Made by a program: the position numbers and the translations under genes
Part shown: piece by piece, positions 7,443-55,054 of the stretch
Numbering within the stretch: position 1 is the stretch's first letter
Layout of the letters: each line of letters begins with the position of its first letter
Origin: Burkholderia seminalis DSM 23518
GTDB lineage: Bacteria > Pseudomonadota > Gammaproteobacteria > Burkholderiales > Burkholderiaceae
Direction: 5' to 3'
Assembly (NCBI RefSeq): GCF_902832885.1
Contig: NZ_CADFDK010000001.1
Span: 744,001-808,000 of the forward strand
DNA length: 64,000 nucleotides
The notes under the pieces: generated by a model
The model's database searches: none
What the model saw: only the letters and a program-made list of their open reading frames with translations
What the model was told of the DNA's origin: nothing

Positions 7443-7806
7443 GTTCCCTTGTTGTTGGAAGGTTCTGCGAAGGTCGCGCCGTATCCGTAACAGGTGCATA
7501 CCGGCGCGCCATCAGGAATCTCGACGGCTGCCGAGTACGCGCCATTGGACGGCAATCGGGAAATCAAGTTTCTGATCTCGGCTGGCCGCAGATCGACGCG
7601 ACTCCGGGCACGTTCGCGTAAAGCAGCGCGGTGCATGCCCTGCCCCACTCGCAGATACGGCAACAGCCACGCGCGGCATGCGTCTGCAACAAGATCGTGA
7701 AACGCAAAGGCCCCATGAAAATTCTCTTTGCGGAAGTCAAAACAAAAACGGCACTGTCTTTTGGGACAGTGCCGTTTTTAACTTCTTGATACCGCTAGGA
7801 ATTCTG
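7443..7806. other. intergenic region left of attL
   Basis: These bases hold one strong terminator (7744-7779, listed separately) and no gene I can support. A minus-strand open frame at 7397-7663 contains a protein-like stretch (GAYSAAVEIPDGAPVCTCYG) and could be a decayed gene fragment, but it has no plausible start or domain. Before prophage insertion this DNA lay directly downstream of tRNA-His. Confidence 0.35.
7744..7779 (-). terminator. intrinsic terminator, probably the original tRNA-His terminator
   Basis: An 11-bp perfect stem (ACGGCACTGTC, 7748-7758, pairing with 7765-7775) is flanked by AAAA and TTTT, so it can work in both directions. Seen from the minus strand it lies 27 bases beyond attL, just where the terminator of tRNA-His would be in the uninfected chromosome. 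It would also stop the convergent methyltransferase transcript. Confidence 0.8.
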
Positions 7807-7855
7807 TGGGGTGGCTGATGGGACTCGAACCCACGACGACAGGAATCACAATCCT
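7807..7855. repeat. attL core, 49-bp copy of tRNA-His 3' end
   Basis: These 49 bases are identical to 54978-55026. They comprise the anticodon-loop-to-CCA part of tRNA-His, minus strand. Identity breaks at both edges (g/t at 7806 versus 54977, and t/g at 7856 versus 55027). The 5' half of the tRNA is absent here, so this is the partial copy left at the far end of the integrated element. Confidence 0.95.
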
Positions 7856-8023
7856 TGAATATTTTCCTTATATTTCAATAACTTACATAAAATCATTGGA
7901 ATATAAGGTGCTGCAAGCGGCTTATCTGGCGTAGCGAGTTTTGCTCATGTTCCAAGGTATTAGGTAGCGTAAATTATTAAAATTTAGCTCATCCAGGCTA
8001 CATTTGCACGATCTCAATCGTAC

Positions 8024-8743: not shown

Positions 8744-8792
8744 ATGAGTTCCCCGTCATGACTTGTTGTAGATTGATTTCAACAGTCTACTA

Positions 8793-9443: not shown

Positions 9444-9491
9444 CGCCGTCCCCTATTTTCGTTCTTGACGGCCCCATCTTACCCCGCGCTA

Positions 9492-9511
9492 CACTGTATA
9501 TCCATACAGTA
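9492..9511. promoter_or_regulatory. LexA (SOS) box between SRAP gene and 9524 gene
   Basis: CACTGTATATCCATACAGTA contains CTGT-N8-ACAG exactly (CTGT 9494-9497, ACAG 9506-9509) with an AT-rich centre, very close to the LexA consensus shared by gamma- and betaproteobacteria. It lies 12 bases before the ATG at 9524 and about 48 bases before the SRAP start at 9443, so one operator can control both divergent genes. Confidence 0.88.
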
Positions 9512-9523
9512 TCGTATCGCATC

Positions 9524-9985: not shown

Positions 9986-10003
9986 GCTGACGGCGCCCCT
10001 CGA

Positions 10004-10819: not shown

Positions 10820-11457
10820 CACAACGGCGCGCCGGCGATCGCTGCCGTGGGGTAATTGACCGCCGGCACCGCGCGCCAGAAGCCATTGATCTCGGCCGGC
10901 TGCGGCACGCCTTCGAGCATTTCGAGGCGCTTGTTGAGCGCCTCGAAATTGCGATTCAGATCGTCGGCCGTGAGCACGTCGCCGTGACGGAACGTCGTCA
11001 TCGCAGCCGGCGCGATCGGCACAGTCGGGACGGACGAGGCGCCCGAGGCCGGCGCGGTCACCGTTGCCGGCGGGAATGCCGCGTCGATCATGCCCTTGAT
11101 CGTGCCGATCGCCAGCACCGCAGTGACCTGGTCGGACTGCTTCAGCCCGGATTCCTTCACGACCGTGATGAGCAGCGGCGCGACCGCCGACGAGATCGAT
11201 TGCACACTGACCTGGGTGACCGCCGCGCCAGCCGCGCATGCTGCATCGACCTTCGGGGCGATCTTCTCGTTCAGCGTGACGGCTGCGCCGCCGGTGAAAA
11301 CGCCGGCCTGCGACAGGGTACTGATTTCGGTCTGAAGCAACGGGCAGACCTTCGAGGCGACCTGTGCGGGCGTCTGGAGGGAGAGCGACGAGCATGCGCT
11401 GAACAGCGCGACGGACGCGACAACGCCTGCCGCGAGCAGCATCGAAAAACGCTTCAT
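10819..11457 (-). CDS. prophage lipoprotein, 212 aa
   Basis: It begins MKRFSMLLAAGVVASVALFS and has a lipobox-like FSAC, so the mature protein should start at Cys22 and be anchored in a membrane. The mature part has three further cysteines and alternates Ala/Val-rich helices. A Pro/Ala-rich stretch (about 135-160) precedes a C-terminal coiled-coil-like LTADDLNRNFEALNKRLEML. It overlaps the patatin gene by one base (translational coupling) and may be its partner. It is larger than a typical Rz1 and has no C-terminal membrane segment. Function unknown. Confidence 0.65.
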   Translation of the reverse strand: MKRFSMLLAAGVVASVALFSACSSLSLQTPAQVASKVCPLLQTEISTLSQAGVFTGGAAVTLNEKIAPKVDAACAAGAAVTQVSVQSISSAVAPLLITVVKESGLKQSDQVTAVLAIGTIKGMIDAAFPPATVTAPASGASSVPTVPIAPAAMTTFRHGDVLTADDLNRNFEALNKRLEMLEGVPQPAEINGFWRAVPAVNYPTAAIAGAPL

Positions 11458-11467
11458 GGGAGTTTCC

Positions 11468-11797
11468 TTACTTGAGGGTCTTGATCGCCGTCACCGCGGC
11501 GGAAGTTGCCGCGCCGACGACATCGGATGCCGCTGCTGCGGCGGTTGCCTGCCCTGCGAATGCTTCAACGTCGGTTTCGCGGAGCGAGATGGAATAGGAG
11601 TTGTCGGATTGATGCGTGAACGTCGCCTCGACGGTCGCCATCTGCTTGCCGTTCCAAACGCGCAGCACGCAACATCCAGCGGGATCGCCGGCCTCGTTGA
11701 CGAGGGGCGATACGTCGTACCGCGCGATGCCGGCATAGCGCAGCGAATCGCAACCGCCGAATGCGAGGCACGCGGCCAGCACGACGGCCGCGCGCAT
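11468..11797 (-). CDS. small prophage lipoprotein, 109 aa
   Basis: The signal peptide MRAAVVLAACLAFGGC ends in a good lipobox (FGGC, Cys16), so this is an outer- or inner-membrane lipoprotein. The mature part is beta-rich up to about residue 75 (TATFTHQ and YSISLRETD-type strands) and ends with an Ala-rich helix. It overlaps the stop of the upstream membrane gene by one base and sits in the lysis region. Position suggests a spanin-like envelope role, but there is no C-terminal transmembrane segment, so it is not a classical unimolecular spanin. Unassigned. Confidence 0.6.
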   Translation of the reverse strand: MRAAVVLAACLAFGGCDSLRYAGIARYDVSPLVNEAGDPAGCCVLRVWNGKQMATVEATFTHQSDNSYSISLRETDVEAFAGQATAAAAASDVVGAATSAAVTAIKTLK

Positions 11798-12333
11798 TAC
11801 GGCGCCGGCGCGGGTTGCGCCGCAACGGCCGGGACCGCTGCGGGTACGGCGTCGGCGCCTGCCACCGGTGCCGCCGGCGAATCAGCGGTGGCGGAGGTGA
11901 CCGCGGAAGCCGCCGAGGCAGCTGCAGGCATCGCTGCGGCACCACCACTGCCGGCGCCCGCGAGGCCCGTCAGCGTCACCGGCGTCACCGAGAAGCCGTC
12001 GATCCGCGCGGTGACAAGCGATGGCTTGCCCGTCGCCTGATAGACGCCGAGGCCCGCGAGCGTATATGCGATTGCATCGATCAGGCCAGCGGCCGGCGTC
12101 AAGCCCCTGGCGACGAGCGCCAGCCACGCGCCAAACAGAAGCAGTCCGGCCAGGAACTTCAGCACGATATTCCCGCCATCCGAGGCCGCGTGATAGATCC
12201 CGAGGCCGACGAGCGCATAGCCGATCGCGTCGACAAGAGCGGGCGCCGGCGCGAGACGGGCCAGCACGAGGCCGAGCCAGGTGCCGAACAGCAGAACGCC
12301 GGCGATGAACTTCATCCAGGTTGCACGATTCAT
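11797..12333 (-). CDS. membrane protein with internal duplication, lysis region
   Basis: This 178-residue protein contains two tandem copies of a roughly 44-residue hydrophobic unit, residues 7-50 (MKFIAGVLLFGTWLGLVLAR...) and 58-100 (LKFLAGLLLFGAWLALVARG...). They are about 60% identical, each ending in VDAIGYALVGLGIYHA or its variant. Each unit can form two membrane helices, giving four in total. The C-terminal 75 residues are Ala/Pro/Val-rich and low complexity. It follows the endolysin gene by 59 bases. A second holin or antiholin-like role is possible but not supported by any motif. Confidence 0.6.
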   Translation of the reverse strand: MNRATWMKFIAGVLLFGTWLGLVLARLAPAPALVDAIGYALVGLGIYHAASDGGNIVLKFLAGLLLFGAWLALVARGLTPAAGLIDAIAYTLAGLGVYQATGKPSLVTARIDGFSVTPVTLTGLAGAGSGGAAAMPAAASAASAVTSATADSPAAPVAGADAVPAAVPAVAAQPAPAP

Positions 12334-12392
12334 GAACGAATCTCCGTTTTGTGCCGCGACCGCGGCGAGGTGTAGCGCATGCGCGCCGAGAA

Positions 12393-12962
12393 TTACGAGC
12401 TGACGCCGAGCGCCGCTTTGCAGGAAGTCCAGAGCGCCTGGCGGTCATCCATCCCGTTCGGCGTGCCCGTCGAGCGAGGATTGCCGAGGTTGATTGCGCG
12501 GCTGATCGACAGGAAATCGCCTGCATCGGCGAAGGCGCTCAACGCGTTGTCGGCCCAGAACTGGGCCGATACTTCGGCCGCAACGCTCGGTTGCACGATC
12601 TGGTCGGGGTTGCCCTCGAGGTCGACGCTGATCTTCTGGCCCATCACACGGTAGTTGTAGCGGCCGGTGATCTGCAGCAGGCCACCGCCGCGGTACCGAA
12701 ACCCGTCTCCGGGCTGCATGTTGCCGAGCGTGGCCGCCTTCGCGGCCGGCGGCTCGTACGCACGCTGCGCCGGCGTCGGCCCCCAGATCTCGCGCAGCCA
12801 TTGGAAGCGGCCAGATTCGTGACCGCACTGCGCGAGAAACGCAGCCTGCCGCGCGGGCGAATCGATCGCATACAGCGCCATCACTGCCGAGAGCGGGTCA
12901 GCCCAAGGCGTCGCGCGTGAGGGCGAAATTTGCAACGCACTCGCCAAAATATCGGGTGTCAT
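12393..12962 (-). CDS. endolysin, GH19 (chitinase-type) lysozyme
   Basis: The 189-residue protein has the GH19 signatures: AFLAQCGHESGRFQWLREIW, with the catalytic Glu in HES (around residue 53), and RGGGLLQITGRYNY, the typical substrate-groove motif of family 19 endolysins. It cuts the glycan chain of peptidoglycan during lysis. There is no signal peptide, so it needs the holin. The ATG giving MTPDILASALQISPS is preferred; an extension of 30 residues upstream runs into the holin gene. Start and holin stop are 10 bases apart. Confidence 0.9.
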   Translation of the reverse strand: MTPDILASALQISPSRATPWADPLSAVMALYAIDSPARQAAFLAQCGHESGRFQWLREIWGPTPAQRAYEPPAAKAATLGNMQPGDGFRYRGGGLLQITGRYNYRVMGQKISVDLEGNPDQIVQPSVAAEVSAQFWADNALSAFADAGDFLSISRAINLGNPRSTGTPNGMDDRQALWTSCKAALGVSS

Positions 12963-12972
12963 TGCGACCTCG

Positions 12973-13155
12973 TCACGTATCGAGCAAGCTCTGCTTGCCC
13001 TTGTTCTTGACCAGGTAGTACGCCTGCAACCCGATGTAGACGATTGTCGCAACGGCTACCCACCAGTTGATGTCGTGGTTCGTCAGCCACAACCAGAAAT
13101 TGCTTCCCACTGCCGGCGCCGCCTTCGCTGCGCTCGATGCCAGATCGCTTTTCAT
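12973..13155 (-). CDS. holin, small, one membrane segment
   Basis: The 60-residue protein MKSDLASSAAKAAPAVGSNF... has an N-terminal polar/Ala-rich stretch, one strong membrane helix (about residues 32-50, WVAVATIVYIGLQAYYLV) and a short basic tail (KNKGKQ). Size, composition and position directly upstream of the endolysin fit a phage holin of the short type, which forms the inner-membrane lesion that releases endolysin and times lysis. A rho-independent terminator separates it from the tail-fibre gene, so lysis genes may have their own promoter or need read-through. Confidence 0.8.
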   Translation of the reverse strand: MKSDLASSAAKAAPAVGSNFWLWLTNHDINWWVAVATIVYIGLQAYYLVKNKGKQSLLDT

Positions 13156-13170
13156 TCATTCCCCGGAAAT

Positions 13171-13195
13171 AAAAAAGGGCGCCCGATGGCGCCCT
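13171..13195 (-). terminator. intrinsic terminator after tail-fibre gene
   Basis: Arms AGGGCGCC (13176-13183) and GGCGCCCT (13188-13195) with a 4-base loop are followed, on the minus strand, by TTTTTTATTT. It lies 20 bases after the stop of the gene at 13216-14472 and just before the holin gene, so it divides tail from lysis genes. Confidence 0.82.
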
Positions 13196-13215
13196 GCTGC
13201 TGGCTGATGCGCGTA

Positions 13216-14472
13216 TTAGTGAGCCGTCCAGGACGTCCCGTTACAGAACACGGGGATCGTCGTCGATCCGCCTCCAGTGACCGAGCTGTTGTATGTCGGT
13301 GACGCTGCGTCGGTCACGGCGTAGAGATAGCCGCGCGTGCCTGCGCCACAACCGGGCAGGCTGGCCACTGTCGTTACGGGCAGTACGACGCCATTCGTGC
13401 CGTATACAGTCGAGCCTTGGATGCTCGACGGAGTGGTGAATCCGCCCGTCGTCGTGAACGTGAATTTCGTGTTGCCGGACAGGTCTTGCAGCACCATCTG
13501 ACCGTTCGCGAAGATCATGCGCAGCGACGCGGTCGTCGCGTCGCTTCGGATCGCAGCCACCTTGTTGCCCGCGCTTCCATACCACACGACCGCGTCCTTC
13601 TGCGGGAGCACGATCGCGTTACCTTCGCCGGACGTCGTGTTCAATGCGGTGCTGTGGAAAACGAGCCCGTTCTCGAACGCGGTGTTGTTGTTGATGACGC
13701 CGATCGCCGCACTCGCGTTCGCCGCGCTCGTCGTGACGTCCGGGCGCCCCGACGAAATCCACATTCCGGGCGTCGTGCCTGTCGAGAACATGTTGTACGG
13801 GTCGAGGCCGACAACGGAACCTTGGTTCACGATGTCGATTTCGTTGCCCTGCGTGGTGCCAGCTCCGGCCGCTCGACGCGCCTCGAAGTAGCCCGCGTAG
13901 ACGGTCTGCACCTGCGACGTGTTGTCGTTGATCGCATATCCAGCGACACCTTGCGCAGCCATCGATCCAGCAAGCGTGTTGTCCGACGATCGTGTCGCGC
14001 CGAGCAAACCCATTCCACCGCCGGTCGATTGCGACCATGTTTGCGCGCACGCGGTCGTACATGGAATCAATGAGTTAAGCCAGGCAGATTGGTTGCCGAA
14101 CGATGCGAACGCAGGCGATGCGAACGTGCCGGACGAAACGGTGAGGCTGCCAACCGACGCCCCCGTGGACAGCACGACAGAACCCGTTCCCGTTCGAGTC
14201 GTTGTGCCAGTGCCACCCGACGCGACCGGGATAGGAGATGACAGGCCGGTGATCGAACCGCCCGTGATCGTGGCGTTGGAGCTTGCGAGCGTCGGCACCG
14301 TCAGCGCGCCGGTCAGCGTACCGCCCGTGAGAGGAAGCACGTTCGAGAATGCATAGTTCAGTTGCCCGGCCGTGAGTAATTGCCCGGAAATGAACTGCGA
14401 ATGCGCTGGCAACGTCCAGAGCAGCACGATTGCACAAATCGCGCTCCCGATGGTGGCAAAGATCCTTTTCAT
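13216..14472 (-). CDS. tail-fibre-like protein with Sec signal peptide
   Basis: This 418-residue protein starts with an apparent signal peptide, MKRIFATIGSAICAIVLLWT, with a likely cleavage at AHS-Q. The mature part begins with LTAGQLNYAFSNVLPLTGGT and LTGALTVP, a pattern typical of phage tail-fibre or collar proteins, followed by Thr/Ser/Gly/Asn-rich beta repeats. A signal peptide is unusual for a virion protein. Its middle 200 residues match the host gene at 4824-5936. It is the last gene before the terminator at 13171. It could be a fibre, or an exported protein derived from one. Confidence 0.7.
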   Translation of the reverse strand: MKRIFATIGSAICAIVLLWTLPAHSQFISGQLLTAGQLNYAFSNVLPLTGGTLTGALTVPTLASSNATITGGSITGLSSPIPVASGGTGTTTRTGTGSVVLSTGASVGSLTVSSGTFASPAFASFGNQSAWLNSLIPCTTACAQTWSQSTGGGMGLLGATRSSDNTLAGSMAAQGVAGYAINDNTSQVQTVYAGYFEARRAAGAGTTQGNEIDIVNQGSVVGLDPYNMFSTGTTPGMWISSGRPDVTTSAANASAAIGVINNNTAFENGLVFHSTALNTTSGEGNAIVLPQKDAVVWYGSAGNKVAAIRSDATTASLRMIFANGQMVLQDLSGNTKFTFTTTGGFTTPSSIQGSTVYGTNGVVLPVTTVASLPGCGAGTRGYLYAVTDAASPTYNSSVTGGGSTTIPVFCNGTSWTAH

Positions 14473-14483
14473 GACAGTCTCGC

Positions 14484-14678
14484 TCAGGAAGAAATGGATT
14501 TTTGGGAGACGGGCACAGGCGTGAAGGCCTTACCGTCATACGTCCCGCCGACTTCGGCGCCGGCCGTCGCGGCCACAACCTGGCAGTTGTCTGGCGCGGC
14601 CCATTCGGCTTTGCCATCCCAAAGCACGATGTTGATGACGACGCCGTTCTCGACGATCGCGTAGCTGGAAACTGTCAT
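14484..14678 (-). CDS. small tail-fibre-associated protein, 64 aa
   Basis: The protein begins MTVSSYAIVENGVVINIVLW and contains the pattern VENGVVINIVLWDG...WAAPDNCQVV...GGTYDGKAFTP. That pattern is common in short proteins lying beside tail-fibre genes of Burkholderia and related phages. It is probably a virion-associated or fibre-assembly protein. It lies 4 bases upstream of the glycine-rich fibre gene stop and 11 bases before the next start, so it is within the tail operon. Confidence 0.6.
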   Translation of the reverse strand: MTVSSYAIVENGVVINIVLWDGKAEWAAPDNCQVVAATAGAEVGGTYDGKAFTPVPVSQKSISS

Positions 14679-14682
14679 GTGA

Positions 14683-15609
14683 TCACCATTCGAACATCAG
14701 GAAACCCGGGCCGCTGTTGCCGCCCGCTCCGCCGTTGCCGCCGCCCGCGATGTAGACCCCCCCACCGCCGCCGCCGCCAGATCCAAACCCGTATCCACTC
14801 GCACCGGCAATGCCTCCACCAGCGGCACCACGGCCAGCACCGCCGCCGCCACCGAAAGGCGAGCTTGCGCCCATCCCCCCAGTCCCGCTCGCATTATTGG
14901 CCGTGGCGTCGGAACCGTAAGTGCCGCTCGGAAAGCCAGCACCGCCCGCCCCGCCTGCAGCATTGGAGTTCGTCACCGCCAGACCTCCAGAACCGCCGTT
15001 ACCACCGGGAAGCGTCACCGGCGTGCCCCCATTGAAGCCCGTACCGGAGATGACCAGGTTTCCGCCTGACGCTCCGTTGTTGCCGTTGCCCGACGTCGGG
15101 GCTGCGCCGCCCGTCGCCGCAGCCGGAATCGTGATGCTGATCACACTCCCGGGCACAACCGTATAGGGAACGCGAATCATCGATTGACCGGCACCACCAC
15201 CGCCGCCGCCCGCGGACCAGGCCGATGTACTTGATACCGAACCAGCGCCGCCCGAGCCCGCTGCCCCTCCAGCGGCACACCCGCTCGCATAGACGGTCGT
15301 AACGCCAGCAGGAACCGTGAATGAAGTGCTCGAAGTGAAACGCGCGATGCCCTTGATCACGCCGACCGAGGAAGCAATCAGCGCTCGGATCGCTGCCACA
15401 ATCTGGGTGTATGTGGTCTTGCTGGGAGTGATGCTCGCAGCTGCGAGGACGCTCATGAGCTCCTCTTGAACCATATTCAGCCAGTCGGCATCGAGGATGG
15501 TGGCCGCCTGACCGGTTGCCGGGTTTCCGCCGGTGAAAAAGCCGGGCGTCCCCGCCGGCGCCGGAACGGGCAGCGATGTAACAGCCGTGTTCTGATCGGT
15601 ACGAAACAT
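14683..15609 (-). CDS. tail fibre/receptor-binding protein with glycine-rich domain
   Basis: This 308-residue protein starts MFRTDQNTAVTSLPVPAPAG. The first 90 residues, including ATILDADWLNMVQEELMSVL, are a typical fibre N-terminal module. From about residue 120 the sequence turns into long Gly-rich stretches (GGGGGGAG, SGGNGGSGG and similar) interrupted by short polar segments. This resembles the polyglycine-II sandwich of some phage receptor-binding tips, such as the adhesin of Salmonella phage S16 (comparison by composition only). It probably recognises the host surface. An upstream frame of 37 residues is dropped because it overlaps the preceding gene. Confidence 0.7.
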   Translation of the reverse strand: MFRTDQNTAVTSLPVPAPAGTPGFFTGGNPATGQAATILDADWLNMVQEELMSVLAAASITPSKTTYTQIVAAIRALIASSVGVIKGIARFTSSTSFTVPAGVTTVYASGCAAGGAAGSGGAGSVSSTSAWSAGGGGGGAGQSMIRVPYTVVPGSVISITIPAAATGGAAPTSGNGNNGASGGNLVISGTGFNGGTPVTLPGGNGGSGGLAVTNSNAAGGAGGAGFPSGTYGSDATANNASGTGGMGASSPFGGGGGAGRGAAGGGIAGASGYGFGSGGGGGGGVYIAGGGNGGAGGNSGPGFLMFEW

Positions 15610-15617
15610 GAATGCCT

Positions 15618-16259
15618 CTATGACAGAGTCGTTGAGTCGAGCCTGAAGGTCGAATCCAAGAAACCAGGGTTGGCGATGATCACCAGCGTGTGTGCGGGCT
15701 TCAGCGAGTTGATCTCGCAAAAGAGGACCGCGTTACCCCATGATTCGAGGGGCTCTCCTGCGGCCGACAGGCCGGCGCGGAAGTAATTGATCGTTGTCGA
15801 CGGTGCGTTGATGCGCCACGTGTGAGCCCATCCCTCTGCGCCAACGGAATCGCCCGCGGCATGCACCCCGACACGAAACGGCGTGAACTCACTGACCGTT
15901 ACGTCGAACCCGAGGTTTTTCGCGTAATTGACGAAGTACGCGATCGACGCACCGCCGCTGTTCGCGAATCGGGCAACGACTTGCGCCTGTCGCTGCGCAA
16001 TCGTTGGGGCCTCACCCGCGCACGGATCAGGAAGCCCGAGGGTCGCCTCCCATTCCGGCAGCAGCTCGACCGTTGTTGAAGGAAATGCATCGATGAGCAG
16101 GAAGTTATTCGCGGCGACATGCCGCGCCCAGATCGGCGCGAGTGCCGCGATTGACTGCCCCATCACCGAACTTGGATCGCGCGGCCACGCCAATCCGCGA
16201 GGCATGAGCGCATGCAACGCCGACTCGAAGTCGGTCGCCGAATAGTTCGGTGCGCTCAT
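15618..16259 (-). CDS. Mu gp48/YmfQ-like tail protein (DUF2313)
   Basis: The 213-residue protein begins MSAPNYSATDFESALHALMP. It contains LMPRGLAWPRDPSS and a later LPDP...TIAQRQAQVVARF block, which are hallmarks of the YmfQ/Mu gp48 family (DUF2313), a baseplate-wedge component. In Mu and P2 the equivalent gene follows baseplate J and precedes tail fibres, as here. The start is directly adjacent to the stop of the baseplate J gene, indicating translational coupling. Confidence 0.88.
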   Translation of the reverse strand: MSAPNYSATDFESALHALMPRGLAWPRDPSSVMGQSIAALAPIWARHVAANNFLLIDAFPSTTVELLPEWEATLGLPDPCAGEAPTIAQRQAQVVARFANSGGASIAYFVNYAKNLGFDVTVSEFTPFRVGVHAAGDSVGAEGWAHTWRINAPSTTINYFRAGLSAAGEPLESWGNAVLFCEINSLKPAHTLVIIANPGFLDSTFRLDSTTLS

Positions 16260-17411
16260 TTAAGGAAGCCAGGTGATGTTGCCGAGTACCGGAAGTTGCC
16301 CCGTCGTTCCGACGATGTTCTGCAGCGGCGACGTGATCACGAAGCCCTGCGTGCCTGCGATCGCGGCGATCGCGGAATCGATGTACGACAGGTCAACGAC
16401 GCCGTTCTGACTGCCAGTTCCTACCGGCGATCCGTACAACACGAAGATCCCCGAGATAGCCGATTCGATCGCGACCTTCTGCGCCGCGGTGAAGTTGGCC
16501 GTCCCAGTGATCGTGAAATCGATCGCAGTCGGGATCGGGCCGCACGAATAAACGAGTGCCGTGACGGGGCGCAACGGGTAAATCGAGTTCGCGACCGTGA
16601 GCTGGTCACCGGTGGCCGGCGCTCCGCGCTTCTCGTTCGTCGCGACGCCATCCGTTCCAACCGGAAACCCGTCGTTGCCCGATTCCGCTTGGTCGAACAT
16701 CGTGTACACGACGACAGTGCCGGGCCCGAAGCCGACCGGATTGCACCAAGCGCGCGTCACGCCCGCCACCGCACGCGCCCAGCCGACGTAGTCCGATTCG
16801 GAACCGCCCTGAGCGGGATTCTGGTACGCGAACAGCATGCGCGAACGCAAGCTGTCATCCTTCTCGATGTCGGCGCCACCAGTGAATGCCACCGACACCT
16901 GGCCTGTCGAGTTGATGCCGGCGATCGAGACGCCGAGCGTCATCGAGGTGCCAACGGCGCAATTCCCGAATGCGCCGACCAGGCCGGCCGGATCCGCGTT
17001 CGCCACGGCATTCACCGTGACGACTCCGGCCGTTACCGTTCCTTCGCTCGTCGTCGTATAGCCGACGCCGTCGCTGCGGCTAATCGACGTGCCGGCAGGA
17101 ATCGTCCCGCTCGTGCCGATGAATTGAATCTGCCCGGGCGTCAATGCGCCGGCCTGTGCCGCCGGTTCGCGATAGATACCTTTCAGCGCGGCCCACGCCT
17201 CGAGGAACTCGTCTGTCGCGGTGAATGGGTTCGACTGCTTCGCGATGTAGTCGGTATAGCCATACTGCAGCTGAGCCAGCCCGGCCAGTGCGCGGCCGAT
17301 AACGCCGAAGCTCGAAAATCTCAGCAACGGATCGGTACCCGGCAACCGACTCTGGATGTCGGCCGCGACCTGCGCCTTGAGCTCGGAAAGTGTCGGACGA
17401 AGATACGGCAT
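16260..17411 (-). CDS. baseplate J family protein (Mu gp47-like)
   Basis: This 383-residue protein starts MPYLRPTLSELKAQVAADIQ. It has the family features of baseplate protein J: an N-terminal LP..DPLLRFSSFGVIGRALAG and a central AAQAGALTPGQIQFIGTSGT. A following DDSLRSRMLFAYQNPAQGGS is the conserved block E-x-D-x-x-x-R-x-R. It forms part of the contractile-tail baseplate wedge. It overlaps the upstream gp46-like gene by a TGATG junction. Confidence 0.92.
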   Translation of the reverse strand: MPYLRPTLSELKAQVAADIQSRLPGTDPLLRFSSFGVIGRALAGLAQLQYGYTDYIAKQSNPFTATDEFLEAWAALKGIYREPAAQAGALTPGQIQFIGTSGTIPAGTSISRSDGVGYTTTSEGTVTAGVVTVNAVANADPAGLVGAFGNCAVGTSMTLGVSIAGINSTGQVSVAFTGGADIEKDDSLRSRMLFAYQNPAQGGSESDYVGWARAVAGVTRAWCNPVGFGPGTVVVYTMFDQAESGNDGFPVGTDGVATNEKRGAPATGDQLTVANSIYPLRPVTALVYSCGPIPTAIDFTITGTANFTAAQKVAIESAISGIFVLYGSPVGTGSQNGVVDLSYIDSAIAAIAGTQGFVITSPLQNIVGTTGQLPVLGNITWLP

Positions 17412-17851
17412 CAGTTAATTCCTTCCCAAACCCACACGTATTGACCGTCCAACGGGACGACGCCGTTCTTGATCACGACGATCCGCGCGCCGAGGACGCC
17501 TCGGCGCACCCATTGCGTCGTGATCTCGATGCGCCCGGCCACGCCATCGTCGATAAGCCACTGAAGCGCCTCGGCGAGATAGTCGTAAGCGCGCTGCGCT
17601 GTTTGCGTCGTCTGCTTCGCTCGCTTCAGCAGCCACATCCGAGAACCGATCGGGATCTCGTCGTCTGCCCACCAGCCGCGTCGGTCCGCCGATCCGTCCG
17701 GAATGACGTCGTCGACGCTCGCCTCGCGGTCGGTGAAGATGCTGATCAGCACTGCGCTCTGGAGGTCGCTCCCTGTCGCGAGGTCCGCCCCGGCTAGGAC
17801 CCAGTCCGCGTAATTCGTCGCGGCGTCCCAAGAAAGCGTGATGTCGGGCAT
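17411..17851 (-). CDS. Mu gp46-like baseplate protein
   Basis: The 146-residue protein MPDITLSWDAATNYADWVLA... has the gp46 family layout. An N-terminal segment is followed by LQSAVLISIFTDREASVDD and a WWADDEIPIGSRMWLLKRAK block, then helices and a C-terminal beta part ending VWVWEGIN. In Mu it links the baseplate hub with the wedge and is related to T4 gp25. It lies between spike gp45 and baseplate J, the same order as in Mu. Confidence 0.88.
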   Translation of the reverse strand: MPDITLSWDAATNYADWVLAGADLATGSDLQSAVLISIFTDREASVDDVIPDGSADRRGWWADDEIPIGSRMWLLKRAKQTTQTAQRAYDYLAEALQWLIDDGVAGRIEITTQWVRRGVLGARIVVIKNGVVPLDGQYVWVWEGIN

Positions 17852-17869
17852 TTCGTGCAGGCAAAAAGA

Positions 17870-17887
17870 AACCCGCCGAAGCGGGTT
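17870..17887 (-). terminator. hairpin terminator inside the tail operon (gp45/gp46 gap)
   Basis: AACCCGC (17870-17876) pairs with GCGGGTT (17881-17887); on the minus strand the loop is TTCG and the stem is followed by TCTTTTT. It sits in the 59-base gap between the spike gene and the gp46-like gene. It may reduce rather than block read-through. Confidence 0.65.
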
Positions 17888-17910
17888 GGTTGTGGCGGGG
17901 CGCAGCAGCG

Positions 17911-18534
17911 CTACATTTGCTGATTCGGCACGTCCGAGACGATCGTCGAGCTTCCACCCTGCACGTTCACCACGTCGTGCGTATGCTCGTCGTACCGCTC
18001 ACGCATGCCCTTCATCGTTTCATCGTTCGTTTCGACGTTGTCCTGCATGTCACCTGTCGACGAGAGCATCGGCGTGTCGAATTCGGACCCGCCTGGCGCG
18101 ACGACGCTGAACTTCCCGCCGGCGACGATCTTGAAATCACCGCTGCAGTTCCAGGTGACGTTCGCTGCATCGTTCACGACAACGTCCTGCCCCTTCGCGT
18201 CAACGACGATGCTGCCGTTCTTCAGGTAGACGCTCTTCCCGTCTTGGCTGTACAGGATCGATTCGCCAGGCGCGAGCCCGCGCGGCCGCGATTCTTGGTG
18301 GTTCGTTCCGACCACCGCGCCGGCCGACCTGTCGCCGGCGACGTGCAGGGCAAGTGCATCCGAGCCGATCGGTGGATTCGAAGAAAAACCGAATTCCGGC
18401 ACGCGGTACCGGCCTGCAGGCACCTCCAGGCCGTTCATCCGCAATTGCACGATCTGCACAGGGCCCGTATCGTCGACTATGGTGATCCGGCCACGCCCGA
18501 ACAGGTTTCGAATACGATTCAAAATCTCCGTCAT
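17911..18534 (-). CDS. baseplate spike, Mu gp45-like (baseplate assembly protein V)
   Basis: This 207-residue protein begins MTEILNRIRNLFGRGRITIV. An OB-like N-terminal half with Q-x-L-R-M-N-x-L-E is followed by a beta-helical C-terminal part. Near the end lies YDEHTHDVVN, the H-x-H motif that binds iron at the tip of Mu gp45 and P2 gpV spikes. It forms the membrane-piercing needle. It overlaps the stop of the gp44-like gene by an ATGA junction. Confidence 0.9.
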   Translation of the reverse strand: MTEILNRIRNLFGRGRITIVDDTGPVQIVQLRMNGLEVPAGRYRVPEFGFSSNPPIGSDALALHVAGDRSAGAVVGTNHQESRPRGLAPGESILYSQDGKSVYLKNGSIVVDAKGQDVVVNDAANVTWNCSGDFKIVAGGKFSVVAPGGSEFDTPMLSSTGDMQDNVETNDETMKGMRERYDEHTHDVVNVQGGSSTIVSDVPNQQM

Positions 18535-19685
18535 TGCGCAACCCTACTGAAGTCCGGACCGACCGGATTGAGGATGATCGGCTCCTGATAGAACGCCTGC
18601 GGCGGCATGATCGTCAGCTCAGCTGACGTACCCTGCAAATCCTTTTTGTACGTCACGTCAGAAATCAGCCAACGCTTCTTCGGCAGCTTCAGCGACGGCA
18701 AGTCGATGTCCACGAGCACATTCGGCTCATACAATGCCCCCGCCGAGTCGCGCCACGAATCCGTTACGAGTCGCACCTGGTACGACCGGCCGAGCCGATA
18801 TGCCATCTCCCAGTTTGCACGCTGCAGGGCAATATCCCTCCCGCCGTTCACATTCTCGGAAATGATCGCCCTATACCGAAAACGCGGCACTGTGCTGTCG
18901 TGCACGGTGGAAATGATATTTCCCCCGTCACCGATGTCGCGCAGCGTGTCGAGCCCCTGATACGCTGCGTCGTACCTTGAGAATCGGCCGTCCATTGCCA
19001 TCATGAACGAGGCCGATGCGACGTTGATTCCCTCTGTGAAGCCACTCGAAGCTACCCGCGTGCCGATTGACGTGTTACGGGTACGCGTAGCCGGGCCACC
19101 GGACGCGAAGATCAAACTGCCATCCGGCATGTCGTACAGCAACAGTCCTTGGTAGCGGCACAAAAGTTCGAGTACCGAATATGACGTCTGTCCAACCATG
19201 ACGTTGACCTGCTCGATCGGCGCACCGACATCGGTGCCAGCTGCGACGCTGGACGCAATCCCGTACGGTGCGCATAGCGCCGCCGCGATCTTGTCGACCG
19301 TCATGTTGAGCAGCTGACCGCCATCGATGAGCGCTGCACAGTCGACGAGATCCTGGCACTTGCTTCGGCCGACGATTCGCACGCTATGCTGATTGCCGCT
19401 GTACGACGGCATGTAGCGGTCGACGAAGCCGGTCAATACCAGATCATCGCCGAGCACGACTTGCACCCAGTCTCCAGGCTGCGCGAGGATCTCGCCCACG
19501 CCCGGATATGGCTCCGTATAGCTCACCTCAAAACTCGATGGGCAGCGCTCGATACCTCGCGAAACGGTCACGTCAGTCCACCCGGTAATCGAGCGCGCAT
19601 TCGACGTCGTGAACGTCTCCTGCCCGGGTTTAGCTGCGGGATTGAACGTGCAGGTTGCGACCTTAAGGGTTACGTCGTCGTTCAT
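18531..19685 (-). CDS. baseplate hub, Mu gp44-like (gpP)
   Basis: The 384-residue protein begins MNDDVTLKVATCTFNPAAKP. It contains ITGWTDVTVSRGIERCPSSF and a conserved W-x-x-V-x-V-x-R-G-x-E-x-x-P-x-x-F motif, characteristic of the Mu gp44 hub family, which is related to T4 gp27. The hub joins tail tube and spike. Further blocks include FASGGPATRTRNT and KKRWLISDVTYKKD. Start and upstream stop overlap (ATGA), and gene order matches Mu. Confidence 0.9.
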   Translation of the reverse strand: MNDDVTLKVATCTFNPAAKPGQETFTTSNARSITGWTDVTVSRGIERCPSSFEVSYTEPYPGVGEILAQPGDWVQVVLGDDLVLTGFVDRYMPSYSGNQHSVRIVGRSKCQDLVDCAALIDGGQLLNMTVDKIAAALCAPYGIASSVAAGTDVGAPIEQVNVMVGQTSYSVLELLCRYQGLLLYDMPDGSLIFASGGPATRTRNTSIGTRVASSGFTEGINVASASFMMAMDGRFSRYDAAYQGLDTLRDIGDGGNIISTVHDSTVPRFRYRAIISENVNGGRDIALQRANWEMAYRLGRSYQVRLVTDSWRDSAGALYEPNVLVDIDLPSLKLPKKRWLISDVTYKKDLQGTSAELTIMPPQAFYQEPIILNPVGPDFSRVAQ

Positions 19686-21112
19686 TTCGCAAGCGCTTGA
19701 AACGTAATCGGGCAGAATGCCGGGTGAATCGGGTCGATCTGCTGCAGCAACTGCGGCTCACGCGTCACATCGTCGTAGATGCGTTGTGCGAGCAGCAGCG
19801 ACGGCAACGTGGTGTTAAACGAGAACGTCGCGAGCGTCGCAAGATCGGCCCCGCGCGCCGTCAAGTCGGCATAGACCGCTCGTCTCAGCGATCGCAATGC
19901 GACGAACGTATCGTCGTCGCCCGCGTCGCCCGCGATGTCGATCTCTGCGTCATACAAATCGAGCGCGTTTGACAGAACCGTCGCTGCATCCTGCTGTGAC
20001 GATGGCTGATAACTCGACAGCGTCACGGCCAGCTGCGCGAGCGCGTACCGCCGAAGCAGCGCCGCTGTCGCAACTTGCACCACGCTCATCGATGCGCCGA
20101 TCTGGCCAGGCACGACGACGTCATCCGGCGAGTACTGCACGAGTCCACTCACCAAACGCACGGCGTCCGCCGGATCGTTCGCCGAAGCGGCGATCGCAGC
20201 AACAAACGCATCGACGCTCGAGCCAAGCGTGGCACTTTCCGACGGATTCGCCGCGGCCGCCTGCATGGCCGCGCCAGCGGACACGACAGCGGCGCGCCCT
20301 GCAGCCGACGCCGCAAGCAGGTCAGCTGCCGTGGTGCTGGGCGACGCTTTCGCATTGCTCGCCGAATAGCCCGAATTGCCGCCACCGAAGAGGCGGCCGA
20401 AATTTCCTGAAAGTGTCGAGACAGCGCCGATCACGCGCTTAACGTCATTTACGGCCGTGACGCCGAGCTGATACCAGGCAACTACCGTCGAAACAGCCTT
20501 CTGCACGACGGCCGCACCGTTCCGGATGTCCGCCGCGATGTCCTTTGCGTAGTCGAGAAGTCCTTTCTCCTTCAGGTTCGCCGCGTTGTTCGCGCTATCG
20601 TCTGCCGTGGATACCTGAGTCGTCGGAAACTTGCGCGGCCCCGACACGATCAAGGTGAGCCGGATCTCGAAGACCGGACCTAGGTCGAGCCGCTCGATCG
20701 CCTCGACGCTCAAACATGCAACGTCGTTGACAGTTCCGAACGTCGGGTGAACCAACGTAGCGTTTCCGGGCGACTCGCATACAAAAAACAAGGCGTCGCG
20801 CTGATCAATTACAGACCCTCGATTCGTCTTGAGATCGTTCTCCAGCAGGAAGCCAATAACCTCGAACGCACGAGGCTTCTGGCCCAGATCTTCCACCCAT
20901 ACTTCATCACGAAACGGGTAGGTATGAACTGCCTGCTGCCGACCGGTCGAATTGCGAATTTCAAAGACGCCGAAAGGCACGCCGCCGTAACTGGCCTTCT
21001 GAAGTGTTGAAAACCAGTCGCCCGCCAACAGCGACGCAGCATCGCCAACCGCCGACGCCAGGCCGCCAATGCTCCCGACCACGCTCAGGACGTCGGTTGT
21101 TGTCGATGCCAC
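19682..21112 (-). CDS. DNA circularisation-type tail protein (Mu gp43/N-like)
   Basis: This 476-residue protein has the family N-terminal domain in WFSTLQKASYGGVPFGVFEI and RQQAVHTYPFRDEVWVEDLG, the DNA-circulation N domain of Mu gpN. Despite the name, structural work places the Mu protein in the baseplate. The rest is Ala-rich and helical. It lies between the tape measure and the hub gene, as in Mu, and its start is 11 bases after the tape-measure stop. Confidence 0.88.
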   Translation of the reverse strand: MASTTTDVLSVVGSIGGLASAVGDAASLLAGDWFSTLQKASYGGVPFGVFEIRNSTGRQQAVHTYPFRDEVWVEDLGQKPRAFEVIGFLLENDLKTNRGSVIDQRDALFFVCESPGNATLVHPTFGTVNDVACLSVEAIERLDLGPVFEIRLTLIVSGPRKFPTTQVSTADDSANNAANLKEKGLLDYAKDIAADIRNGAAVVQKAVSTVVAWYQLGVTAVNDVKRVIGAVSTLSGNFGRLFGGGNSGYSASNAKASPSTTAADLLAASAAGRAAVVSAGAAMQAAAANPSESATLGSSVDAFVAAIAASANDPADAVRLVSGLVQYSPDDVVVPGQIGASMSVVQVATAALLRRYALAQLAVTLSSYQPSSQQDAATVLSNALDLYDAEIDIAGDAGDDDTFVALRSLRRAVYADLTARGADLATLATFSFNTTLPSLLLAQRIYDDVTREPQLLQQIDPIHPAFCPITFQALAK

Positions 21113-51893: not shown

Positions 51894-52132
51894 GCATCTA
51901 CCTCACCACGCCTGAACTGGCCGAGCTGGTCGGCTGCAAGCCGCGCAGTCACGCGTGCATGAAACGCTGGCTCGAGCGCAACCATTGGCCGTACGCCGTC
52001 AACATCGCCGGCGTTCCGCTCGTCGCGCGCGAATACTATGACGCACGCATGAACGGCACCGCGCCGCAGACCGCGCATGCCCGGCGCACGCGCGGCACCG
52101 CAGAACAAGAACCGAATTTTGCTGCACTGTGA
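51890..52132 (+). CDS. DUF4224 excisionase-like protein
   Basis: The 80-residue protein begins MSIYLTTPELAELVGCKPRS and has the DUF4224 pattern L-T-x-x-E-L-x-x-L-x-G-x-K, then MKRWLERNHWPYAVNIAGVP (R-x-W-L-x-x-x-x-x-P-Y). These small helix-turn-helix proteins lie just before phage integrases and are thought to act as excisionases or directionality factors. It overlaps the integrase start by a few bases. Confidence 0.85.
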   Translation: MSIYLTTPELAELVGCKPRSHACMKRWLERNHWPYAVNIAGVPLVAREYYDARMNGTAPQTAHARRTRGTAEQEPNFAAL

Positions 52133-53256
52133 TCATGATCGGACGACGGAAACGGCCGGACGGGTTACCCTTCCGGCTCTACGCCCATTACGGGAAACAC
52201 AAGGTCAGCTTCGGCTACAAGCTGCCAAATGGCAGATGGGCATTCCGCCTGTCGGCCCCGGCCCACAACAAGGAAGCTCTCGCCGAGATCCGCAAGCAGG
52301 CGATCGAGCGCGCGGAGGCGCTGAACGGGAACGCGATCGAGCCGGGAACGGTCGAGGCACTCGTCGCGCGGTACTTCGAGTGGCAGGACGGCCTGCCGCA
52401 CACCGACGAGCGGCGCAAGGCCCAGTCCACGCTCGACGAGAACCGCGTCGAGTCGAAGCGCCTGGTCAAGGTATTCGGGAAGATGGCGCCGGCCGCCATC
52501 AAACCCAAGCACGTGTATGGCTACCTGGACAAGCGCGCGCAGCTCGGCGCGCCAGCGAAGGCGAACAAGGAAATCGCCCTGCTGTCCGCCGTCCTCGAAT
52601 ACGGCCGGCGGCGCGGCGAGCTCGAAACGAACCCATGCCGCGGCATCGAGTACAACCCGACGCGGCCGCGCCAGCGGTACGTGACGCAGGATGAAATCGA
52701 TCTCGCGGTCGAGGTCGCGCGGTCACGGCGAAGCGTCGGCGACCAGCATCCCAGTTCCGCGTACCTGATCCTCGCGCTCTGCGTGCAGGCCGCGTACCTG
52801 ACCGTCAGCCGACCGACCGAGATGCGGGAGCTACACCGACAGAGCATCAAGCCGGATGGCGTCGAGGTGCCGATCGGGAAACGGAAGGCCGGCGAGCAGC
52901 AGCGTGTGAAGCTCGTGCTGTGGTCGCCCGAGCTGAAGGCCGTAATCGACGAGGCGCTCGCGCTGCAGCGCACGTCTAGCGTGCACGTGTTCGGAAATAC
53001 CGCCGGCCAGGTGTATACGCGTAGCGGATGGAACACGAACTGGTCGCGGCTGATGGGCTACTGCGAGAAGGAAGCGCAAGCGCGTGGCGTGCCGTTCGAG
53101 CGTTTCGCACTGCGCGACATGCGGCCGGCCGCCGTAACCGACCGCCAGGAGGAAGGCGACGATCGAATTATCGATGCCACCGGCCATGCGGACGAGCGCA
53201 TGGTCCGGAAGACGTACGATCGCCGCAGACAACGCAAGGTGCGTGCGACACGCTAA
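52129..53256 (+). CDS. int: tyrosine recombinase integrase
   Basis: This 375-residue integrase has an N-terminal arm-binding/SAM-like part (DENRVESKRLVKVFGKMAPA) and a C-terminal catalytic domain. LTVSRPTEMRELHR carries the first Arg, and LRDMRPAAVTDRQEEGDDRI carries the second Arg. IDATGHADERMVRKTYDRRR carries the conserved His and the nucleophile Tyr (residue 363). It should recombine the 49-bp tRNA-His core. GTG at 52129 and ATG at 52135 are alternative starts. About 1.7 kb of cargo separates it from attR, which is unusual for a temperate phage. Confidence 0.95.
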   Translation: MIMIGRRKRPDGLPFRLYAHYGKHKVSFGYKLPNGRWAFRLSAPAHNKEALAEIRKQAIERAEALNGNAIEPGTVEALVARYFEWQDGLPHTDERRKAQSTLDENRVESKRLVKVFGKMAPAAIKPKHVYGYLDKRAQLGAPAKANKEIALLSAVLEYGRRRGELETNPCRGIEYNPTRPRQRYVTQDEIDLAVEVARSRRSVGDQHPSSAYLILALCVQAAYLTVSRPTEMRELHRQSIKPDGVEVPIGKRKAGEQQRVKLVLWSPELKAVIDEALALQRTSSVHVFGNTAGQVYTRSGWNTNWSRLMGYCEKEAQARGVPFERFALRDMRPAAVTDRQEEGDDRIIDATGHADERMVRKTYDRRRQRKVRATR

Positions 53257-53299: not shown

Positions 53300-54244
53300 T
53301 CAACTTGAGCTTGTTAGAGGCAGACTAGCCAGCATCGCACGCTTCACCTCCATCAGGTGAGCAGCCGACTCGTAGTCGTCACGCGATCGCAGTGGTGTGG
53401 CGCCTCGACGGTTGATTAGTATGAGCGGCCCCTTCGATACTAGCTTCAACTCGTCAGCCTTCTCAGGAAGAACAGCAAAGAGTTGCCTGCGATTGCGAAG
53501 GCAAAACTCGGCCTGAGTCATGGTACCGCTTCGCTCCTCGCCTTCGACGATAATTGATCCAGCGGATAGCCCGATCTGAATTCGATTGCGTTGCACGAAC
53601 TGTTCTGGGAGCGCCGGGACGTTGATTGGATGTTCGGAAACCCATGCACCACCATTCGCCAAAATATCGTTTGCCAGATGAGCATTGGCTTTCGGTGTCG
53701 CATGGTGAAGTCCGTGTGCAAGCACCGCGACTGTCGCACCCGATACTCCAAGGGCGCCCCGGTGCGCAGCCGCATCGATTCCCAGTGCAAGGCCACTTAC
53801 GATCGTCCACTGCCGCTCGGCGAAATAGCCGGCTATGCGCTCCGCTATCCGCAGTCCATTTGGGGATGCCTTACGTGTACCCACTACAGAAACACCAGGC
53901 TTGGCAGAAAGCAGCTCTCTATTCCCTTTTGAATAGATTACAGGTGGTGCATCTTCGATCAGCTTAAGGTGAACAGGATAGTGATCGGACGTAACAGGAA
54001 TTACGTCGATCCCAGCCTCTACTGTCTCGCTGATGGATTTTTTGGAGAATGCCAATGCCGCCTCGTCACCCACCTTGTCGCGCGGCATGCCCTGACTCTC
54101 GCACCATTCGATCAGGTCGAGCTCGTCGACCATTTGGTCAACTGGCGCCTTCAGAAGCAATGCCGATGCCGCGCCCGGGCTTATGCGGCAGGCACGAAGA
54201 AGGATCTGTGCGACAACGCAAATTGACAGATCAGAATTCGTCAT
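53300..54244 (-). CDS. DprA/Smf-like protein of the SLOG superfamily
   Basis: The 314-residue protein begins MTNSDLSICVVAQILLRACR. It has a short helical N-terminal part and a full DprA Rossmann core: VSVVGTRKASPNGLRIAERI, TIVSGLALGIDAAAHRGALG, FVQRNRIQIGLSAGSIIVEG and SGTMTQAEFCLRNRRQLFAV. The usual C-terminal winged helix of DprA is missing. DprA loads RecA on single-stranded DNA in transformation; the wider SLOG superfamily also includes nucleotide-sensing immunity proteins. It is the second gene of a leftward operon with a phosphoribosyltransferase (ATGA overlap), outside the integrase. Confidence 0.88.
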   Translation of the reverse strand: MTNSDLSICVVAQILLRACRISPGAASALLLKAPVDQMVDELDLIEWCESQGMPRDKVGDEAALAFSKKSISETVEAGIDVIPVTSDHYPVHLKLIEDAPPVIYSKGNRELLSAKPGVSVVGTRKASPNGLRIAERIAGYFAERQWTIVSGLALGIDAAAHRGALGVSGATVAVLAHGLHHATPKANAHLANDILANGGAWVSEHPINVPALPEQFVQRNRIQIGLSAGSIIVEGEERSGTMTQAEFCLRNRRQLFAVLPEKADELKLVSKGPLILINRRGATPLRSRDDYESAAHLMEVKRAMLASLPLTSSS

Positions 54245-54819
54245 GTTGTCCGCCCAAGTGCGAGTGGCATCACTGTTGCCGCACCTGCTCGGCAGAGAAG
54301 GTCGGCGCAAGCGATAAGTGAGTTACCTGTAGTAGTGATGTCGTCCAGGAGAAGAATCGTCTTCTGCGCGATCTTCGCACCTCCGTTTCCAATTCGAATA
54401 GACGCTTGGTGCACTGCCTGGTTCCGATTGCCTCCAGCTGCGAGCTTCTGGATGGTTGTAGTGCGCTCGAGCACACGCGTTGCATCGATGAAATTCGCAT
54501 TTCGCCGGATTAGATTCGACGCGATCTTTTCGAGGCCCGCCCCCCACGTCCCCTGTTTGCTGGAGGGGACGATCGCGATGAGGACCTGCAGGTTTGGTGG
54601 CGGCACGCCATGCGCAGCAAGGAACGCCTCTACTTCACGACTGAAATGCGTGACAGCGGCGTTGTGGCCTCGCTCCGTATCCCTCTTCAAGTCCAACAGC
54701 ATCCTGCAATTGCTATCGAACGCAGGGTTGACGACTCGATTGCCCTGTCCATCGTCAATCCAGTAATTGTGATACTCGACAAGATTTGCGATCTGCTGTA
54801 CCTGCGGCACATACCCCAT
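54241..54819 (-). CDS. phosphoribosyltransferase (ComF-like)
   Basis: This 192-residue protein begins MGYVPQVQQIANLVEYHNYW. The PRPP-binding motif is ILLLDDITTTGNSLIACADL (two Asp followed by T-T-T-G), near residues 155-175, preceded by a basic RIGNGGAKIAQK. LIAIVPSSKQGTWGAGLEKI resembles the substrate/hood side of ComF-type enzymes. It should bind phosphoribosyl pyrophosphate; the acceptor is unknown. ComF and DprA belong to natural competence in the host, but here both are phage-borne and translationally coupled. A TTG at 54864 is an alternative start. Confidence 0.85.
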   Translation of the reverse strand: MGYVPQVQQIANLVEYHNYWIDDGQGNRVVNPAFDSNCRMLLDLKRDTERGHNAAVTHFSREVEAFLAAHGVPPPNLQVLIAIVPSSKQGTWGAGLEKIASNLIRRNANFIDATRVLERTTTIQKLAAGGNRNQAVHQASIRIGNGGAKIAQKTILLLDDITTTGNSLIACADLLCRAGAATVMPLALGRTT

Positions 54820-54865: not shown

Positions 54866-54886
54866 AAGCCCGCGCATGGCGGGCTT
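54866..54886 (-). terminator. intrinsic terminator between attR and the PRTase gene
   Basis: GCCCGC (54868-54873) pairs with GCGGGC (54879-54884), flanked by AA/TT; on the minus strand it is followed by TTTTTG. It lies about 90 bases beyond the tRNA-His 3' end and replaces the original tRNA terminator, which is now 47 kb away. It also leaves almost no room for a PRTase promoter. Confidence 0.75.
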
Positions 54887-54977
54887 CTATTTTGTCTTCA
54901 TCTTCCAAATTTTGGAATCTCATCTTCCAAAACCTGTAACACGTCAGCTTGATTCTGCTGCAAGTGCTTGAATTTGT

Positions 54978-55026
54978 TGGGGTGGCTGATGGGACTCGAA
55001 CCCACGACGACAGGAATCACAATCCT
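54978..55026. repeat. attR core, 49 bp within tRNA-His
   Basis: Identical to attL (7807-7855). It covers the 3' part of tRNA-His from the anticodon arm to the encoded CCA, so insertion keeps the tRNA complete on this side. The crossover point should lie in or near the anticodon arm. Confidence 0.95.
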
Positions 55027-55054
55027 GGACTCTACCAACTGAGCTACAGCCACC
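54978..55054 (-). tRNA. tRNA-His (GTG anticodon)
   Basis: The minus strand gives a 77-base cloverleaf. The extra G-1 typical of tRNA-His (GGTGGCTG at the 5' end) pairs with C73. The D-arm is AGCTCAGTTGGTAGAG, the anticodon loop has GTG within GGATTGTGATTCC, the T-arm is GGGTTCGAGTCCC, and CCA is encoded. Its 3' 49 bases are the phage attachment core. It lies 54 bases downstream of dusA in the same direction. Confidence 0.95.

Follow-up and report, generated by a model that had tools for sequence, protein, structure and literature searches.

A predicted compact ShosTA gene pair in the integrase–attR slot of a tRNA-His-integrated Burkholderia prophage

Within a 64,000-nt stretch of the Burkholderia seminalis DSM 23518 genome (contig NZ_CADFDK010000001.1, positions 744,001 to 808,000; hereafter, the window), two overlapping genes encoding a phosphoribosyltransferase (PRTase) and a DprA-like protein were identified at the right end of a prophage of approximately 47.2 kb, extending from attL to attR and integrated in a tRNA-His gene. 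The pair probably represents a compact ShosTA-type toxin–antitoxin system, carried as anti-phage cargo by this contractile-tailed prophage. This reading is based on the gene structure, the family assignment, the predicted PRTase fold with its intact phosphoribosyl pyrophosphate (PRPP)-binding loop, purifying selection, and the location in prophage and slot, while toxicity, neutralization, trigger, and protection by abortive infection are proposed by analogy with relatives.

Gene structure and family assignment of the pair

Both genes are located between the integrase and the tRNA-His gene, convergent with the former, and the start codon of the shosA-like gene sits inside the stop of the shosT-like gene (Table 1). 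The initial annotation had described a PRTase gene and a DprA/SLOG gene joined by an ATGA overlap, opposed to the integrase and lying at the element edge, and the reading frames, motifs, and coordinates were recovered as described there. Chance is excluded because the Pfam matches (DNA_processg_A with E 2.1e-59 in the DprA-like protein, the only other match being the overlapping SLOG cluster4 family, and Pribosyltran with E 2.6e-6 in the PRTase) are accompanied by low ratios of nonsynonymous to synonymous substitution rates (dN/dS). These were 0.02 for ShosT and 0.045 for ShosA, at dS values of 0.41–0.62, with the integrase at 0.021, in comparison with the sole close relative found, IMG/VR contig 2816332256, which carries a close copy of the pair (98% and 96%) at the same integrase/tRNA-His position; both genes therefore look maintained by selection. 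A promoter scan at the pair yielded none.

Regarding the family assignment, the best PADLOC models were ShosT and ShosA, followed by weaker matches to PsyrA (2.5e-34) and PsyrT (8.5e-9). In the PADLOC sense, the pair agrees with ShosTA in that the two genes are adjacent on the same strand, have ShosT and ShosA as best models, and include a PRTase with a PRPP-binding loop; moreover, the DprA-like partner is set apart from ordinary genomic DprA in a tree of 52 proteins. On the basis of the PADLOC calls, the pair is thus assigned to ShosTA, an already described anti-phage toxin–antitoxin system, in a compact form. For the 192-aa PRTase, Pfam revealed no HAD match at E 0.1, which separates it from the HAD–PRTase subtype, and PRTase matches alone were obtained, which separates it from the helicase fusions of PsyrTA and RqlHI. 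The 314-aa ShosA lacks, according to Pfam, the C-terminal winged helix of a competence DprA, as the initial annotation had already noted; it is much shorter at the C-terminus than the 475-aa product of a second dprA gene in the same genome (contig C19), and is without the second domain. An open reading frame (ORF) resembling peptide deformylase, named from reading the sequence by eye without a scan, adjoins the latter dprA gene.

The NCBIfam equivalog model for dprA (TIGR00732) reached 177.9 bits, compared to a cut-off of 191.15, and the comF model (TIGR00201) only 40 bits, compared to a cut-off of 233.55. Overall, the interpretation given in the initial annotation is supported in part.

The predicted structure of ShosT superposes on residues 175–363 of the solved 424-aa ShosT, i.e., on its PRTase part. 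Searches with the structure model in BFVD (E 0.001) and with the ShosT sequence in the PDB (E 0.1) gave no match, and a 13-row ShosT profile searched against the PDB at E 0.01 retrieved other PRTases and not the solved ShosT, so that the tie between the two proteins rests on the predicted fold and the PADLOC models. For ShosA, the structure model (12-row alignment) featured a predicted local distance difference test (pLDDT) value of 44.8 and was not used.

Relatives in phages and bacterial genomes

Co-localized PRTase–DprA pairs, for which the initial annotation had proposed a search near phage integrases and defense islands, were found to recur on viral contigs. IMG/VR scans with alignments of both proteins revealed a ShosA relative on 19 contigs, and 18 of these carry a same-strand adjoining PRTase (cut by the contig edge in L102 and split into two frames in L106), the nineteenth (L118) beginning inside ShosA; being relatives of an already paired query, these contigs are not independent cases. 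Among named phages, ShosA matched 38 of 50,697 records at E 1e-5, and both proteins were matched only by Salmonella phage SopEPhi. In all four further phage records that were opened (P2_4C9, PfAC02a, Burkholderia phage Mana, and Gordonia phage Bosnia), a PRTase gene is located beside the DprA gene, the pair being near an integrase in Mana and Bosnia, although the ShosT match of Bosnia is weak (7e-4).

Among bacterial genomes, a ShosT match at E 1e-8 was obtained in one of 65 of the genus, which is the window's own genome, and no relative was found by a ShosT search of the genome-contig collection. A profile of alignment A3 matched three of 150 genomes of the phylum at E 1e-15, the own genome included. 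Across the order, the ShosT family model was unspecific, matching 189 of 399 genomes at E 1e-6, and many of these matches are probably ComF-like. Thirty of the loci (L007–L036) were checked for a DprA gene within approximately 1.5 kb, and besides the window (L015), 7 of the remaining 29 were positive, all of them belonging to the nine best matches; the two negatives among these nine were L012, near a contig end, and L016.

The tree of 52 DprA-like proteins separates 27 rows labeled chromosomal (the top DprA hits from Burkholderiales genomes, a label given without a neighbor check) from 25 paired rows by a branch supported at 98/92. The window ShosA falls into a clade of 14 rows together with SopEPhi (100/96). 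Because the branches of P2_4C9, PfAC02a, and Bosnia are very long and the bootstrap is unsettled, no branching order is asserted among the ShosA lineages. Before the tree was built, L117 was removed for its broken frame, L153 for its weak match, and L154 as a copy of L007.

The nearest annotated relative found of the window pair is orf14–orf15 of SopEPhi (L086, 11098–12646). Both genes are annotated as "unknown" and were recognized by PADLOC as ShosT/ShosA-type (6.1e-17 and 4.6e-71). As in the window, and as in IMG/VR relatives, a 193-aa PRTase gene is followed by an overlapping DprA-like gene, with 36% and 38% identity to the window proteins in the alignment. The SopEPhi pair is found at 11.1–12.6 kb of a 35-kb P2-like genome; the window pair occupies the slot between integrase and attR.

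The ShosTA system of P2_4C9 (8zvb/8zvc/8zvd, 9w2p, and 9w2q), a pair of the kind described from the P2 hotspot in Rousset 2022, likewise consists of a PRTase and a DprA-like protein in a temperate phage, and the PADLOC ShosT and ShosA models recognize both systems. However, its ShosT comprises 424 aa, weakly matches HAD hydrolases at residues 30–133, and carries the loop DDFCTEG, in contrast to the 192-aa PRTase-only protein of the window with DDITTTG. Furthermore, the shosA gene comes first in P2_4C9 and the shosT gene first in the window, and the ShosA proteins are 29% identical. A ShosT–ShosA pair in a temperate phage was also found in the Pseudomonas phage PfAC02a, next to Kiwa genes; unlike the window protein, its 478-aa ShosT features HAD, PRTase, and zinc-ribbon matches. 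In RqlHI and PsyrTA, a toxic PRTase domain is likewise opposed by a DprA-like partner (for RqlHI, according to PMC4670107), but the PRTase of RqlH is fused to a RecQ-like helicase (the PsyrT model spans 689 positions), which the window PRTase lacks. Elsewhere in the same genome (G000:C17:96073-96369), a PRTase domain was noted inside an open frame of 880 aa, possibly a helicase–PRTase fusion.

Prophage, attachment site, and cargo slot

In a PHROGs scan, nine of ten prophage ORFs were matched, representing terminase, portal, major head protein, tail sheath, tape measure, baseplate hub and wedge, a replication O-like protein, and a ParB-like protein; the prophage is therefore regarded as contractile-tailed. 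The attL and attR sites form a 60-nt repeat (93% identical), and a 48-nt exact core occurs twice in the window. The integrase is 98% identical to that of a B. anthina locus, and the right flank matched a Burkholderia metagenome bin (95.6% identity over 5.1 kb) as well as B. anthina (92.4% over 6.1 kb). Compared with named phages, positions 7860–20000 of the window gave short matches only, in four Burkholderia phage records, and positions 20000–44000 gave no DNA match. A plasmid origin of the cargo was considered and rejected, as no DNA match was obtained in the plasmid collection. A 300-nt direct repeat (76% identical) was additionally noted at positions 5137–5436, outside the prophage, and 13457–13756, inside it.

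Searches with the integrase covered the 65 genomes of the genus (14 matching at E 1e-40), IMG/VR (34 loci), and the genome-contig collection (6 loci). Fifty-six loci were examined (the window, L037–L051, L052–L085, and L087–L092), and 45 were kept as intervals from the integrase stop to the downstream tRNA-His core. The 11 others (L037, L045, L047, L049, L050, L052, L078, L079, L080, L082, and L089) were excluded as copies or because of a contig end, a missing att core downstream, or a distant integrase; a single broken integrase locus accounts for both L048 and L051. The 45 rows correspond to 37 distinct intervals, 10 of which are nearly empty (<200 bp) and 27 of which are occupied (657–2554 bp).

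The integrase stop codon itself forms the left edge of the slot. At the right edge, most occupied intervals show a hairpin and a common arm with ATCTTCCAA/TTGGAAT/ATCTTCCAAAA repeats, beyond which the tRNA core is located, the exceptions being L085 with another hairpin and L091 without a hairpin before the arm. The one hairpin detected by the scan at the pair is not above the shuffle mean, yet a like hairpin recurs there in most related prophages. Apart from a like hairpin and the arm, the short intervals hold little, with a second hairpin in L075–L077 and L084, and the arm only in L090. The main ORF (≥100 aa) is antiparallel to the integrase in 24 of the 27 occupied intervals and parallel in L067, and two intervals have none. 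In L092 (Burkholderia catarinensis), three copies of the tRNA-His core were observed (positions 1132, 8320, and 11713), which suggests elements integrated in tandem. Beside the tRNA-His gene of IMG/VR contig 2816332256 (L004; 2897–3970 and 4089–5132), a second integrase-like ORF follows a dusA-like gene (both named by eye), which suggests a second element attached at dusA.

According to our own grouping, the occupied intervals hold 19 cargo configurations (Table 1). The PADLOC and Pfam scans covered 20 cargo proteins in addition to the window pair, including that of L082, which is not a kept slot, and leaving out some second and third ORFs; L044/L073/L074 (lacking any ORF of 100 aa) and L067 (whose only ORF is parallel to the integrase) are unscanned. 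PADLOC matches below E 1e-10 were obtained for four of the 20 proteins (L091, L054, L065, and L066), weak matches for two (L062 with 0.0038 and L068 with 0.0052), and none at E 0.01 for the remaining 14. The ATPase of L054 is presumably PARIS-like. By comparison, a control set of 40 ORFs from elsewhere in this prophage of the window, picked mechanically by length and codon-position G+C so that some may not be genes, included none reaching 1e-10; six PADLOC models matched them at 0.01, the best with 1.1e-9. The difference (4/20 versus 0/40) corresponds to a one-sided hypergeometric value of 0.0099, to be read in view of small sets, controls from one prophage, and a cut-off picked after seeing the data. 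The scanned cargo proteins of L087 (B. anthina), L059, L046, L071, L072, L085, and L060, matched by neither Pfam nor PADLOC at E 0.01, represent candidates for unknown defense or lysogenic-conversion genes.

Compared with the window, the last 150 nt of the integrase gene are more divergent (77–90% identity across 22 prophages) than 1100 nt overall (86–90%), the highest 3′-end identity belonging to the prophage carrying the same cargo. As no more than a hint, this pattern would fit an exchange of cargo through recombination at the 3′ end of the integrase gene. Variable defense cargo at a fixed site of related temperate phages is likewise known from the P2/P4 defense hotspots (PMC9122126); the P2/P4 hotspot adjoins the cos site, whereas the slot of the tRNA-His Burkholderia prophages extends from the integrase stop to attR. 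Among titles and abstract openings, with subscription journals and preprints mostly uncovered, no description of a Burkholderia prophage hotspot or a tRNA-His slot was found.

Table 1. Features of the window and cargo configurations of the slot. Plain positions refer to the window; loci are named where positions refer to related prophages.
Feature	Position	Strand	Remarks
shosT-like gene	54241..54819	-	192-aa PRTase, predicted toxin; ATG at 54819, stop at 54241-54243; contains LLLDDITTTGNSL; PRPP loop LLLDDITTTG; without HAD-like part; PADLOC ShosT (PDLC03962) 6.6e-16
shosA-like gene	53300..54244	-	314-aa DprA-like (SLOG) protein, predicted antitoxin/sensor; ATG at 54244, stop at 53300-53302; contains SGLALGIDAAAH and RNRIQIGLS; without C-terminal winged helix; PADLOC ShosA (PDLC03961) 8.9e-66
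Stop/start overlap of both genes	54241..54244	-	54244..54241 reads ATGA; probable translational coupling
Tyrosine integrase	52129..53256	+	phrog_1 4.3e-31; stop codon is left edge of cargo slot
G+C-rich hairpin	54866..54886		right edge of cargo; A run before, T-rich after (+ strand); kind present in most related prophages
Common arm	54887..54977		ATCTTCCAA/TTGGAAT/ATCTTCCAAAA repeats; probable arm-binding sites of the integrase
attR core	54970..55029		inside intact tRNA-His gene
tRNA-His (GTG)	54978..55053	-	intact; attachment gene
attL	7799..7858		remnant of tRNA-His 3′ end
ShosTA	window		cargo configuration
TIR proteins	L040/L088 with L062; and L065		cargo configurations
531-aa AAA ATPase closest to AriAB	L054:7227-8819		PADLOC 7.3e-27
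Small second gene of L054	L054:8877-9293		related to cargo proteins of L057 and L064
Trypsin-like protease, PDC-M35A	L066		PADLOC 2.4e-23
HipA-like protein, PDC-M03A	L091		PADLOC 7.3e-108
DUF4145 protein	L068/L081		cargo configuration
Twelve configurations without name	cargo slot		two of these unscanned

Proposed mode of action and competing explanations

For the mode of action, the PRTase-only ShosT would bind PRPP and, when free, drain or corrupt the pool of PRPP and purine nucleotides, a disturbance that would damage DNA and arrest growth. ShosA, translated from the coupled start codon, would bind ShosT and/or DNA and hold the toxin off. An infecting phage may then disturb ShosA, or replication intermediates watched by it, so that ShosT becomes free and infection is aborted by the lysogen, which would protect sister lysogens and the resident prophage. 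Several of these steps have counterparts in the literature. As described in PMC4670107, the PRTase domain of RqlHI is genotoxic, the exchange D663A in its PRPP pocket abolishes most of the toxicity, and the DprA-like partner still achieves nearly complete rescue without its C-terminal 80 residues. In a review (PMC12593503), Pu et al. 2025 are summarized as having described ShosT as a phosphoribosyltransferase and pyrophosphatase disturbing purine metabolism, ShosA as binding DNA, and T7 Gp0.7 as triggering the system. The reported pyrophosphatase activity may be carried by the HAD-like part; if so, the compact ShosT must kill via its PRTase alone.

A toxin–antitoxin pair mainly stabilizing the prophage in the lysogen, with phage defense being incidental, would be in agreement with the gene overlap, the position at the edge of a mobile element, and the role of DprA homologs as antitoxins in shosTA, syrTA, and rqlHI, as given in PMC9122126. 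Nevertheless, such an addiction module is regarded as unlikely, since the slot holds many unrelated cargo genes, with strong PADLOC matches more frequent than in the control ORFs, which fits phage–phage conflict better, and since the ten nearly empty intervals indicate that the slot is not needed for prophage maintenance. A captured dprA gene with a comF-like gene, aiding DNA uptake or recombination-mediated replication of the prophage, is still less probable: both NCBIfam models remain below their cut-offs, ShosA lacks the winged helix and stands apart from the 27 other Burkholderiales DprA proteins, and the reading was rejected on these points. The recurrence of the pair on viral contigs and the further dprA gene on a separate contig argue in the same direction, and the initial annotation had likewise disfavored a plain competence role.

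The restriction of the pair to one of the 65 genus genomes and the G+C content of the cargo (0.554, compared to 0.615 for the prophage) could also point to a decayed or horizontally scattered remnant without present function. With both frames intact and dN/dS values comparable to that of the integrase, this explanation appears very remote. The compact ShosTA system is thus retained as the preferred reading of the pair, and the slot is read as a defense-rich cargo site holding an abortive-infection toxin–antitoxin pair.

A wider reading, about evenly balanced when taken as a whole, is that the integrase–attR slot represents an unnamed anti-phage hotspot, with cargo swapped as a unit from the integrase stop to the hairpin plus arm, that many of the 14 out of 19 configurations without a strong defense match (two of them unscanned) contain new defense genes, and that ShosTA works here with a single PRTase domain, so that the HAD-like part of the studied ShosT would be dispensable for the core mechanism. 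The ShosTA kind of pair and the pattern of defense hotspots in temperate phages are already known; the main interest is in the cargo slot and the PRTase-only toxin rather than in the pair itself. The slot is short, sharply bounded, and findable via the integrase and the tRNA-His core, and provides a ready set of anti-phage gene candidates carried by Burkholderia prophages. The pair adds to a known defense family a compact, PRTase-only ShosTA, a form common to SopEPhi, suggesting a function for two SopEPhi genes annotated as "unknown", and the compact ShosT makes the question of which part of ShosT kills directly testable.
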